Source: Spiroplasma eriocheiris
GTDB taxonomy: Bacteria > Bacillota_I > Bacilli_A > Mycoplasmatales > Mycoplasmataceae
NCBI RefSeq assembly: GCF_001029265.1
Contig: NZ_CP011856.1
Location: forward strand, 1,178,001 to 1,242,000
Length of the DNA: 64,000 nucleotides
Direction of reading: 5' to 3'
Part shown: positions 28,457 through 58,882 of the stretch, piece after piece
Position numbering within the stretch: position 1 is the stretch's first letter
How the letters are laid out: each line of letters opens with the position of its first letter
Position numbers and translations under genes: made by a program
The notes under the pieces: generated by a model
Told to the model about the DNA's origin: nothing
The model's database searches: none
What the model saw: only the letters and a program-made list of their open reading frames with translations

Positions 28457-28479
28457 AAAACGAATTTAAAATTCGTTTT
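28457..28479 (-). terminator. Terminator of the 423-aa leader-regulated gene
   Basis: AAAACGAATT / AATTCGTTTT stem with a TTTAAATTAA tail. It overlaps the gene's stop codon. Confidence 0.6.
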
Positions 28480-29749
28480 ATTTTATACTATGAACTTCTA
28501 CTAAATCATCATTAACTGAAGTATTATCTGGTGATAATTGGGCTTGTTGGGCAAGGTTTTGTTGCTGTCTTTGAAGATTTTGCTTACGATGATTAGCAAG
28601 TAGTCTTTGTTGGTTGTTGGATGATACGGAGTCATTATTTAAAAGTGGAGTATTTTCATTAATTTCTTGGGGGCGATTTCAATACGCGGTTATTAAATTG
28701 GTAATTTTTTTAACAATACTAAAAGCACCGCGGGTGCTATCAACAATTGAAGAAAATGCTGCTGGTAATACAGCTTCTAGAATTGTTTTCAAAGAATTTG
28801 TTAATCCTTGGTTCGTAATCAAATTTCTTGTTAAAACACCATAAGTCATTAAATTTAAACCTGGTGATAGGACTCCAGTAATGTTATTAATAACTTGCAC
28901 CCCCAAACTTTCTTTTTCTGCACAAATTGTGGCAATCAAGTTGACCATTTCCATTCCCTGGGCCATTGTTGATCAGAAGTTAGTTCCCTTGAAATAAATT
29001 TCTTTAAATAGTTCAAAACCACCATCATGTTCATAAGTTTCATAAGTAGTTTCATAAGTGTGAACTAATTGCATTAAAATATTGCAACCCACTGATAAGT
29101 AAATACTAGTGGCCAGAACTTTTTGGGCATATTTAGTCAAGTTGTGCTTTTCATTATCAAGATATTTTTCAACTAATGGTTTCATTGATAAATAAACAAT
29201 ATCATAGTAATAAAAATATAATCCCTCTGGTTTTCATAAATTAAAATTAGGCATTGTGTATTTTGCCACACAAATACTTGTCGATTCTAAAAAATTTAGA
29301 AAGGTATCTAAAAGTTCTTCTTTTTTAAACCCGTTTTGAGCAATTGCTTTGACATGCATAAAAAATGATCGAACATCTGGTTCAGAAATGTGCTCGTTAA
29401 GAATTTCATCAATTTCGACAATAAAATCAGCAGTTTCCGCATTTAATGAATGATTAGGTTCAACACCAACTTCTAAGATAGTGCTACTTCCTGCTGAGGA
29501 AATAGGTGACTCTGGTGGGTTACTTTCTGTGGGTTCATTTCTTTCTGAAGAATTTATTAGTTCAGATGGGTCTGAGACTGGTGGTAAAGGAGATTCCTCA
29601 CGGAAAAGGAACTCGGGGATAATAACTTCGTCTGCTTCAGAAATTTCATTCGATGCTGAAAAAGTTTTGCTATCTAAATCAGAATCATTTTTAGACAGAT
29701 CATTAGGGGTTGATAAATTTTCAATTGAATTATTGTGTGATTTTGGCAT
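28478..29749 (-). CDS. Hypothetical protein, 423 aa, leader-regulated
   Basis: Residues about 1-110 are Ser/Glu/Pro/Asn-rich and disordered. Residues about 115-360 are a largely helical body, with moderately hydrophobic stretches near 225-245 and 285-330. The tail is Gln/Asn-rich with a PLL motif. No family recognised, no signal peptide. The gene has its own long 5' leader with the GAGT-N10-CCTRA terminator element shared by two other orphan genes in this window, so it is probably part of a common regulon. Confidence 0.75.
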
Positions 29750-29871
29750 AGTTGTTTTCCTTTCATATAATAAATTAAGTATAAAAAAGCATTTTAAGCT
29801 TTCAAACTTAAAATTAGATATTAAAAATATTTTAGTTGCATCACTAAAAAATAATAAAAAATAATTTTAAA

Positions 29872-29920
29872 CAAAAAACACCTAATAAAATAAACTTTAT
29901 TAGGTGTTCTTGACACTCGT
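29872..29920 (-). promoter_or_regulatory. Leader attenuator element 1 (GAGT-N10-CCTAA terminator)
   Basis: In RNA of the minus strand: ACGAGTGTCAAGAACAC, then the stem ACACCTAATAAA / TTTATTAGGTGT and T6. A small hairpin GTGT-CAAGA-ACAC overlaps the terminator's 5' arm, so the two compete. The 423-aa gene starts about 120 bases after it. Confidence 0.65.
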
Positions 29921-30046
29921 TAAAATTGATAATTATTAACTTTTCGTTTTAGAAAAGTACGTTATCATTTTATCACTATAAAAACAGAAAACAATAATTA
30001 TTTAATAAAATAAATTCTTATTAAATAAATTTTAAAAAATAGATTT

Positions 30047-35004: not shown

Positions 35005-36453
35005 TTAGCGAGAAGAACTGCCAGGAAGATTTTGATTAAGATTAATTGTAGTATCTATTGATTTCATTTTATTTTTTTGTTCCACTTTTTTAATTAGTAT
35101 TTTTTTAAGTTTATTTAAATTTTTTAATTCTGGATGTTGTTCACTTATTTGCTCTAAAATTTTGGTTTCTAGAAATTTATAAATTATAATTTTTTCAAAT
35201 CTTTCTACACCAGTATTATTAGGATGATAACCAAAAATTTCTTTTAAATCCCTTAACATATTAAATTCATCTGGACAGTAGATTTTTAAATTATTTCTTA
35301 TTTTTACACTCGCTAAACAACTTTGTAAATTTTTTCAATTTCATTTTTCTAATTGAGGTTTTGAAGAAACATTAATTAATTCATTAATATCAATCCTAAT
35401 TGAAGAGTACGTACTTAAAAAATTTACTGTATTTATCAATGTTGTTCTCATATCTTTTTTATTAGCACATTTTCAAAGGAATAATTTTTCTTGTTCCAGA
35501 GGAATTAATTCTTTTCCTGTAAGAAAATATGGGCAGATTTCATCATAATCTAATTCCCTAAATTTAATATAATTATTAATAATATTTTTTCACTCCTTAA
35601 ATAATTCTAATATTTTTTCACTAATATTGTTGTTAAAAATATTAAAGTTATTTAGGAGCGATTGGTGGTCTACTGCTAATAATCCTTGAATTTCCCTTCA
35701 TTCATTATTTAATATTAGATTTTCAATTTCGTTGTGTTCATTAAAAGTTGCTAAAATTTTTTTATAAAAATTCCAAAATATGCCGCTAATAAACTTCAAC
35801 ATTATGAAATCAGGATTTTGTGAATAATTTAAATTCTTAAAATAAATTATAAATTGTGATTGAATATTTAAGAGCAAATTATTTTTTTCTTCTATTGTAT
35901 AGTTGCTTTTTATAATGGAATGAATATTATCAGATAAATACTCATTAAAACTACAAAGCTCTTCAAAAACTATGAATAAATTTTTAAAATTTTCAAAAAT
36001 TAGTTCTTGGAGATTATCTATCTCATTTGTCACAAAGTTATGTGAGGATTTTATTCCCACAAAATAAGTATCTGTTAAAATATTTAGAGAATTTTTATTT
36101 AAATAAAAATTATTTAAAATTTCTTGATAATGACTATTATCTCATTCATCACCTTTCGGTATGTCAACAGTATTGTAGTCCTTAATTTTTTGGAAGAAAA
36201 GATCTAAGTTGTTAAGACATTCATTGTAAGTAAATAATAAATTCGATAAACTACTTCTGTTATTATCATCAATTATTGAAGTAATATAAACACCTAAATT
36301 AAACGTATAATATTTTAAAATTTCATTTAAATATTCTTTAAAAAAATAAAATAAAGTTTCTTTTTTAGATTTTAATTCTTGTTCTGTTTTTATCTTCTTT
36401 CCAAATTTTTTATTTCTATATTTAAAAAAATTGTCAATTTGCTCAATATTCAT
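35005..36453 (-). CDS. Hypothetical helical protein, 482 aa (intact copy)
   Basis: A 482-aa protein, predicted almost wholly helical, rich in Asn, Ile, Lys, Leu and Phe, without signal peptide or membrane helices. No transposase, integrase or nuclease motif was recognised. The leader is the GAGT-N10-CCTRA attenuator, and the ribosome site AAAGGAGCGG precedes ATG. It is the intact copy of a duplicated unit; the second copy at 44718-46166 is broken. The last about 15 residues differ between copies, ending LPGSSSR here. Confidence 0.8.
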
Positions 36454-36486: not shown

Positions 36487-36555
36487 AAAAAAACCTGATT
36501 ATTATTAACTATAAATGGATAGTTAAGAATTAAATCAGGCATTATGTATACTCTA
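36487..36555 (-). promoter_or_regulatory. Leader attenuator element 3 of the intact 482-aa gene
   Basis: Minus-strand RNA has GAGT, ten bases forming the stem GTAT-ACATA-ATGC, then CCTGATT pairing with AATCAGG, and T7. A nested stem AACTAT / ATAGTT lies within the terminator loop. The ATG follows 34 bases later. Confidence 0.65.
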
Positions 36556-44374: not shown

Positions 44375-44610
44375 GTTTAATTAAATCATGTTTAATAAAT
44401 TATTTTTTTTAGATATTGATCTTTTTTATTTTCATCAATAAATTTAAATCATTAAAAATATGAACTATTTTAATTTTTAGTATAATTTTAATTAATGATT
44501 ATAAACTAATTAAATGTCCAAAAATAAATTTATTTTTTTATTTTAAATTTATTTAAATAACTATAATTAAAATGAATAAGAAAATTATTCATAACATAAC
44601 TAAATATTTC

Positions 44611-44679
44611 AATAGAGTATATATAATGCCTGATTTTACCCTTAACTATCCATTTATAGTTAATAATAATCAGGTTTTT
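44611..44679 (+). promoter_or_regulatory. Leader attenuator element 4 of the broken 482-codon gene
   Basis: GAGT then the stem GTAT-ATATA-ATGC, then CCTGATT pairing with AATCAGG and a T5 run. It lies about 48 bases after a TATAAT box and 39 bases before the ATG. Confidence 0.65.
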
Positions 44680-44717
44680 ATTTTGAAAAACTATCGTTAT
44701 AAAGGAGCGGATAACTT

Positions 44718-46166
44718 ATGAATATTGAGCAAATTGACAATTTTTTTAAATATAGAAATAAAAAATTTGGAAAGAAGATAAAAACAAAACAAAAATTAAA
44801 ATCTAAAAAAGAAACTTTATTTTATTTTTTTAAATAATATTTAAATGAAATTTTAAAATATTATACGTTTAATTTAGGTGTTTATATTACTTCAATAATT
44901 GATGATAATAACAGAAGTAGTTTATCGAATTTATTATTTACTTACAATGAATGTCTTAACAACTTAGATCTTTTCTTCCAAAAAATTAAGGACTACAATA
45001 CTGTTGACATACCGAAAGGTGATGAATGAGATAATAGTCATTATCAAGAAATTTTAAATAATTTTTATTTAAATAAAAATTCTCTAAATATTTTAACAGA
45101 TACTTATTTTGTGGGAATAAAATCCTCACATAACTTTGTGACAAATGAGATAGATAATCTCCAAGAACTAATTTTTGAAAATTTTAAAAATTTATTCATA
45201 GTTTTTGAAGAGCTTTGTAGTTTTAATGAGTATTTATCTGATAATATTCATTCCATTATAAAAAGCAACTATACAATAGAAGAAAAAAATAATTTGCTCT
45301 TAAATATTCAATCACAATTTATAATTTATTTTAAGAATTTAAATTATTCACAAAATCCTGATTTCATAATGTTGAAGTTTATTAGCGGCATATTTTGGAA
45401 TTTTTATAAAAAAATTTTAGCAACTTTTAATGAACACAACGAAATTGAAAATCTAATATTAAATAATGAATGAAGGGAAATTCAAGGATTATTAGCAGTA
45501 GACCACCAATCGCTCCTAAATAACTTTAATATTTTTAACAACAATATTAGTGAAAAAATATTAGAATTATTTAAGGAGTGAAAAAATATTATTAATAATT
45601 ATATTAAATTTAGGGAATTAGATTATGATGAAATCTGCCCATATTTTCTTACAGGAAAAGAATTAATTCCTCTGGAACAAGAAAAATTATTCCTTTGAAA
45701 ATGTGCTAATAAAAAAGATATGAGAACAACATTGATAAATACAGTCAATTTTTTAAGTACGTACTCTTCAATTAGGATTGATATTAATGAATTAATTAAT
45801 GTTTCTTCAAAACCTCAATTAGAAAAATGAAATTGAAAAAATTTACAAAGTTGTTTAGCGAGTGTAAAAATAAGAAATAATTTAAAAATCTACTGTCCAG
45901 ATGAATTTAATATGTTAAGGGATTTAAAAGAAATTTTTGGTTATCATCCTAATAATACTGGTGTAGAAAGATTTGAAAAAATTATAATTTATAAATTTCT
46001 AGAAACCAAAATTTTAGAGCAAATAAGTGAACAACATCCAGAATTAAAAAATTTAAATAAACTTAAAAAAATACTAATTAAAAAAGTGGAACAAAAAAAT
46101 AAAATGAAATCAATAGATACTATGATTAATTCTGATAAAAATATCCCATACAGTTTTTCTCGCTAA
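44718..46166 (+). pseudogene. Broken copy of the 482-aa helical protein gene
   Basis: Same length (1449 bp) and almost the same sequence as the gene at 35005-36453, but codon 40 is TAA (44835-44837) where the other copy has GAA. The other differences in the coding region are few, apart from the last dozen codons (ends IPYSFSR instead of LPGSSSR). The rest of the frame is open, so the loss looks recent. Confidence 0.88.
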
Positions 46167-57880: not shown

Positions 57881-58747
57881 TTATCTAATATATTCTTCAT
57901 CATCTTCAAATTTTAATGATTTATCTATTAAATCTAAATCTTCTTTAAAAATTTTCATTTTTTCATTAATAAACTCACTATTTTCTTCACAGAATTGCTG
58001 AATTAATTTATTAATTTCTTCCATAACTTGGAGAAGGTCTTGCGCAATATTCCGATTAATTACTTGCGGGTTAAAATTTTCAAGATAGTGATTAGCGACT
58101 ATTTCAAAGTGTATTCTTAAATTAGCTAGCAGTAAATTTCTTTTTTCAAAACACATTGCTGCATACTCAACAAACAAAGTTGAAAAAGACAAAAAGTTAT
58201 TTGCTAAATTAGTTTTTAAATAATTTTTTAATGTTGCAAACCTAGTATTAAAAAATTCTTTATACTTTACAACTAAACTATTGTCACTAAGCTGTTTATT
58301 ATTAGATAATGCTTTTGCAAAATCAAGAAACTTTCTTTTAATTGGCCCCTGAATTAAATTTAATTTTGTTCCAATGACTGGTAAGATTTTAATTTTAATT
58401 AAATTTTTAATCTCTTCTAATTCAAAAATACCTAAAAAACTATTTTCACTTAATAATTCCTGAAATTGTTGTTCAGATTCGTTTTGGCCCATCAATTGTT
58501 CATTAGTTTCAAATGTGAATAAAAATGGCACCCCATCAGATTTTGTGAATTCAACAATGTCTTCCTTAAAATTTAAAAAGCAATTATTTATATAATAATT
58601 AAAACAAAAATTTAAAAAGTAAAGAGAAAAATCATCGACTTTTTCTCGGTTTCTAATAAAATAGTCTTGAAAAAAATCATTATATTTTGTTTTAAATTGT
58701 TCTTCGGTTGTCGCTGAATCTAAGCGACCAAAAATATGTCCTGGCAT
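57881..58747 (-). CDS. Hypothetical helical protein, 288 aa, leader-regulated
   Basis: A 288-aa protein predicted almost all helical, rich in Phe, Asn, Glu and Lys, with no signal peptide or clear membrane helix, starting MPGHIFGRLDSATTEEQF. No family recognised. It is preceded by a clear TATAAT, then the GAGT-N10-CCTAA attenuator, then AAAGG and ATG. In type it resembles the 482-aa and 423-aa leader-regulated proteins, though I see no firm alignment. Confidence 0.78.
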   Translation of the reverse strand: MPGHIFGRLDSATTEEQFKTKYNDFFQDYFIRNREKVDDFSLYFLNFCFNYYINNCFLNFKEDIVEFTKSDGVPFLFTFETNEQLMGQNESEQQFQELLSENSFLGIFELEEIKNLIKIKILPVIGTKLNLIQGPIKRKFLDFAKALSNNKQLSDNSLVVKYKEFFNTRFATLKNYLKTNLANNFLSFSTLFVEYAAMCFEKRNLLLANLRIHFEIVANHYLENFNPQVINRNIAQDLLQVMEEINKLIQQFCEENSEFINEKMKIFKEDLDLIDKSLKFEDDEEYIR

Positions 58748-58780: not shown

Positions 58781-58830
58781 AAAAAACCTAAAAAATAATT
58801 TAATATTTTTTAGGTACTTTTCGTACTCGT
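58781..58830 (-). promoter_or_regulatory. Leader attenuator element 2 (GAGT-N10-CCTAA terminator)
   Basis: Minus-strand RNA: ACGAGTACGAAAAGTAC, then ACCTAAAAAATA pairing with TATTTTTTAGGT, then T7. A small stem GTAC-GAAAA-GTAC shares bases with the terminator arm. A TATAAT box at 58849-58854, about 20 bases upstream of GAGT, shows that it is a leader and not the end of an upstream gene. Confidence 0.7.
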
Positions 58831-58882
58831 TTTTTATTTTTCAATAGGATTATAACATATTTTTATTTAAATTTTGTTAAAT

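Follow-up and report, generated by a model that had tools for sequence, protein, structure and literature searches.

The crab pathogen Spiroplasma eriocheiris carries a family of 16-nt hairpin elements that overlap intrinsic terminators in front of genes, and we interpret these with reasonable confidence as factor-dependent attenuators that are OFF by default and in which the mini-hairpin competes with the terminator. The family, its structure, its covariation, the terminator overlap, and the position before genes are read from sequence; the start sites, the factor, and the direction of the ON state we infer. A broader proposal, to which we give about even chances, is that a new RNA-binding antiterminator and this 16-nt hairpin control a largely orphan regulon of about 42 genes in a wall-less pathogen, including a GDSL lipase, a DXD glycosyltransferase domain, and a secretion-like operon, with one copy driving a small non-coding RNA. 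If true, a switch of genome-wide reach would operate in a mollicute, one of a group in which few regulators are known, and a hairpin of 16 nt would be able to act as an antiterminator for many genes. One regulon would then bring together dozens of lineage-specific genes without known function and give them a shared context, and the hunt for the controlling protein would become a direct biochemical experiment.

The element and its copies in the window

In the window, the 64,000-nt stretch of the S. eriocheiris genome analyzed here, copy 1 lies on the minus strand, where positions 29918 to 29903 read GAGTGTCAAGAACACC and are followed by CTAATAAAG...TTTATTAGGTGTTTTTT. The 16-nt core has the consensus 5'-GA-(4-nt arm)-NNRNA-(4-nt arm)-C-3'; its 3' part doubles as the start of an intrinsic terminator, and a gene comes just after. 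The copy 1 core, GA-GTGT-CAAGA-ACAC-C (29903 to 29918, minus strand), is identical in the related genome G005, and the 3' half of its mini-hairpin is contained in the 5' arm of a terminator at 29868 to 29911 (minus strand) with the U-tract at the low end. Copy 2 (GA-GTAC-GAAAA-GTAC-C; 58813 to 58828, minus strand) is followed by a terminator at 58781 to 58815 (minus strand), about 36 nt before an ATG. Copies 3 and 4 sit in the two copies of a duplicated unit: GA-GTAT-ACATA-ATGC-C at 36538 to 36553 on the minus strand, with the terminator CCTGATT...AATCAGG-T7 at 36487 to 36540 (minus strand), and GA-GTAT-ATATA-ATGC-C at 44615 to 44630 on the plus strand, with a terminator at 44628 to 44680 (plus strand). 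One pair of the GTAT/ATGC stem is a U.G wobble. In the unit's second copy (44560 to 44900), the attenuator is kept despite an in-frame TAA in the downstream reading frame.

The first-pass annotation had described this layout at copy 1 and claimed four occurrences of GAGT-N10-CCTRA. Both are confirmed: the window holds exactly four (29918, 36553, and 58828 on the minus strand, 44615 on the plus strand) versus 0.35 expected from dinucleotide shuffles, and 0 of 100 shuffles reach four. Because two of the four copies sit in the duplicated unit, the window provides three independent examples. Under stricter criteria (GA, four pairs, R9, A11, C16, and a terminator), set after the copies had been seen, the window gave 4 matches versus an average of 0.02 for first-order shuffles. 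The same annotation had placed the constant loop A's at positions 2 and 5; the four loops (CAAGA, GAAAA, ACATA, and ATATA) instead share A at positions 3 and 5.

Family size and stem covariation

Model searches found 42 copies with a terminator in the whole S. eriocheiris genome (1,365,714 bp) and about 28 in G005 (1,132,608 bases; probably S. mirum), counts that rest on search matches and a limited number of genome stretches. The first pattern, GAGTN10CCT...AGG...T4 with positions 5 to 14 free, had recovered 17 distinct copies in S. eriocheiris and 9 in G005, with one match in S. eriocheiris and none in G005 for its reversed control. Models R1 and then R2, searched across the 14 genomes of the genus, extended this set; in the other 12 genomes R2 found none, save one 27-bit match lacking the mini-stem. 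The search for further covarying copies that had been proposed at the outset thus returned them from the organism's own genome and from G005, and with nothing comparable in those 12 genomes the idea of one switch for several orphan genes is strongly supported. An order-wide model search of 320 genomes, run with stricter filters and few candidates scored per genome, gave only scattered matches of at most 35 bits outside the two species, versus up to 65 bits within them. The best of these outside matches look like chance, and those that were inspected proved to be incomplete cores or generic terminators, in some cases next to a tRNA gene or within coding sequence.

Among 84,980 species, in a collection that may omit S. 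eriocheiris and its near relatives, the exact pattern matched twice, in unrelated organisms and judged to be by chance; in viral contigs it had no match. The pattern CGAGTN10CCTRA hit mostly coding sequence in relatives, and eight extra matches of a strict script, which lay away from leaders and were judged by eye to be due to chance, were dropped. Within the collections searched, this family of 5'-leader attenuators appears limited to S. eriocheiris and G005, and no description of the element was found in the open-licence papers searched.

Covariation was assessed in 27 copies (20 distinct), namely, the 26 from the free-position pattern and the G005 orthologue of copy 2. Both sides change at pairs 5-13 (AU/GC/GU) and 6-12 (CG/UA), and 97.5% of stem cells pair, versus 10 to 51% when the partner is slid by 1 to 3 columns. 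Variants and later members add double changes at C4-G14 and A3-U15, and in a set of 40 copies double (compensatory) changes occur at each of the four stem pairs; this set was required to pair, so its pair types are informative but its 100% pairing is not. Such changes at every stem pair strongly support the function at the RNA level that had been claimed from the window alone. One pair of the LemA leader is mismatched in each of the two species (G.G and A.G), which counts against the attenuator reading.

Outside the stem, A11 is present in 27 of 27 copies and A9 in 26. G1, A2, A11, and C16 do not vary across the 41 S. eriocheiris copies compared, and A9 occurs in 40, while loop positions 7, 8, and 10 are variable. 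Some constant bases were conditions of later detection; a pattern free of constant-base conditions gave eight matches, all of them known copies in the two species, with GA, the loop A's, and C16. G1 and C16 may also pair, with A2 bulged above them. Conservation of the loop A's may come partly from pairing with the terminator U-tract, which also counts against the attenuator reading. Between 25 orthologous leaders of S. eriocheiris and G005, 15 of 400 core sites differ (3.7%), compared with 8.9% of sites upstream and 8.8% in the terminator region and downstream. Four G005 copies (500049, 767438, 820493, and 886567) that have lost G1 or one of the stem pairs precede broken-looking frames, though the numbers are small.

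We consider it highly improbable that the copies simply terminate the genes upstream, or are DNA operators, and that their inverted repeats arose by chance. Copy 1 would suit such a reading, since it sits about 130 nt past the upstream stop codon and has a promoter-like sequence after it, but nearly all copies are oriented toward the following gene, pairing in RNA would account for the U.G wobbles and double changes, and the element is absent from 12 related genomes, with 0 to 1 matches in controls.

Competing folds and comparison with known systems

In all S. eriocheiris copies tabulated, the terminator overlaps the 3' strand of the mini-hairpin or its flanking C. Because that strand also forms the first part of the terminator, the two folds should be mutually exclusive. 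Computed energies at 37°C in S. eriocheiris are −10 to −22 kcal/mol for the full element and −0.4 to −3.3 kcal/mol for the mini-hairpin alone, and because the latter is so much weaker, termination (OFF) would be the default. We propose that transcription begins a short distance 5' of the core and that the nascent RNA would first form the mini-hairpin GA(N4)NNRNA(N4')C, whose strand shared with the terminator would exclude the other fold; without the factor, the transcript would terminate. A putative factor acting in trans, probably an RNA-binding protein, would recognize G1, A2, loop bases R9 and A11, and C16, possibly with A2 bulged above the G1-C16 pair, and the mini-hairpin held in this way would block the terminator and allow RNA polymerase to read through (ON). 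The 3' arm of the terminator in the 388747/351057 leaders holds GGAGGTG close in front of the ATG. With the first gene's Shine-Dalgarno sequence thus inside the arm, translation may also be gated there, and the same event would free it.

Two results count against the attenuator reading at this point. No candidate factor was found, and in the S. eriocheiris genome (G000) a perfect core, GAGTACTTAAAGTACC (802836; L162, reverse strand 465), precedes a 552-aa gene without an overlapping terminator. This core could reflect decay or another expression platform.

The same folds could in principle work without a protein. A factor-free attenuator or RNA thermometer, in which kinetic competition sets read-through according to temperature or polymerase speed, would be in line with the computed shift of mini-hairpin stability with temperature, but it leaves the invariant G1, A2, A11, and C16 unexplained, and stem stability ranges widely between copies (the span given above); we regard it as unlikely. 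Slightly less probable still is a very small riboswitch, the same attenuator with a mini-hairpin that directly senses a small molecule or ion. The invariant loop and flank bases, the mutually exclusive folds, and the promoter-like boxes close upstream would all agree with sensing of this kind. However, the core has only 16 nt with the first, second, and fourth loop bases free, several leaders have a −10-like box about 12 to 16 nt before the core, which leaves little room for a further aptamer, and the target genes have no evident pathway in common.

By analogy, the factor-dependent attenuator that we favor would work like BglG/SacY-RAT or ANTAR antitermination. In the RAT model, a bound protein stabilizes a short hairpin that overlaps an intrinsic terminator and so permits read-through (PMC9981650). 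As in the BglG/SacY/LicT RAT, sequence and computed folds here place a short hairpin upstream of, overlapping, and mutually exclusive with an intrinsic terminator; the element differs in its 16-nt core with a single pentaloop and in targets that do not belong to one sugar pathway. The BglG-type RNA-binding domain CAT_RBD (PF03123) was found in 0 of 14 genus genomes, with four control genomes positive. ANTAR-responsive RNAs (EutV, NasR) have two hairpins with hexaloops, conserved A1 and G4, and a fold exclusive with the terminator (PMC3369931). The small stems, few fixed loop bases, and terminator exclusivity are shared, whereas the Spiroplasma element has a single hairpin with an NNRNA pentaloop fixed at positions 3 and 5. 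The ANTAR domain (PF03861) was likewise found in 0 of 14 genus genomes, but the control genomes were also silent. Rfam covariance models, searched over the window at the gathering threshold and over six loci at E values up to 1, gave tRNAs and sub-threshold matches, none at an element.

The element could also be a binding or entry site for another role (RNA processing, mRNA stability, or processive antitermination of the boxB/N type), with the terminator overlap secondary. The pentaloop of the small phage boxB hairpin, bound by N, is rich in purines, and a base looped out of it can contact the protein; the NNRNA loop with its free fourth base resembles such pentaloops (PMC12550061). The one perfect core without an overlapping terminator would also fit. 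Yet a core-overlapping terminator occurs in 42 copies, the first loop position is not restricted to G as in boxB, and the element adds an invariant GA...C and a local terminator overlap; we therefore think another role improbable. The bulged-A operators of RNA-phage coat proteins (MS2 and PP7) resemble the element in their fixed loop A's and, if its A2 is bulged, in a bulge beneath a stem of 4 bp; they differ in loop size and context, and the bulge in the Spiroplasma element is itself a prediction.

Downstream genes and leader context

Copy 1 precedes the orphan gene P0001 (423 aa; 28478 to 29749, minus strand), whose paralogue, some 400 kb distant (in L064), is preceded by the same 16-nt core and a different terminator. 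Copies 2 and 3 precede the orphan genes P0002 (288 aa; 57881 to 58747, minus strand) and P0003 (482 aa; 35005 to 36453, minus strand). Within the genus, relatives of these three genes were found only in the S. eriocheiris and G005 genomes. Few of the approximately 40 downstream genes extracted resemble one another; most have no Pfam match, and the matches that were obtained are to LemA, DUF3137, PQ-loop, glyoxalase, GDSL lipase, and a DXD glycosyltransferase domain.

After the copy at 486984/411862 comes no reading frame of at least 50 aa; instead there is a stretch with more than 60 consecutive bases identical in both species and a hairpin at the end, a possible small RNA. In L058 (reverse strand, about 2016 to 2330) and L074, the element precedes a strongly conserved, gene-less stretch, a possible regulated small RNA with a terminator-like hairpin of its own.

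TATAAT-like boxes lie 12 to 50 nt upstream of the core in most copies, in AT-rich sequence and counted without a statistical control. Sequence matches place a candidate −10 for copy 1 at 29967 to 29972 (TAAAAT with a TG extension, minus strand), 48 nt before the core, and one for copy 2 at 58849 to 58854 (TGTTATAAT, minus strand), 20 nt before the core. The copy 2 terminator should lie in the leader, because its short distance to the ATG leaves too little room for a promoter. At copy 1, a candidate downstream promoter, TTGAAA-16-TATACT (29778 to 29805, minus strand), lies between the terminator and the ATG and is kept in G005 as TTTCAA-16-TATAAT; the attenuator may be bypassed from this promoter, which counts against the attenuator reading for this copy. 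An inverted repeat at the same site (29785 to 29815; TTTTAAGTTT-GA-AAGCTTAAAA), a perfect palindrome in G005, is a possible operator. In several leaders (e.g., L121 and L063) a AAAGTGTAAAT-like sequence is common right after the −10-like box, and in others GTTAACA stands immediately 5' of the core.
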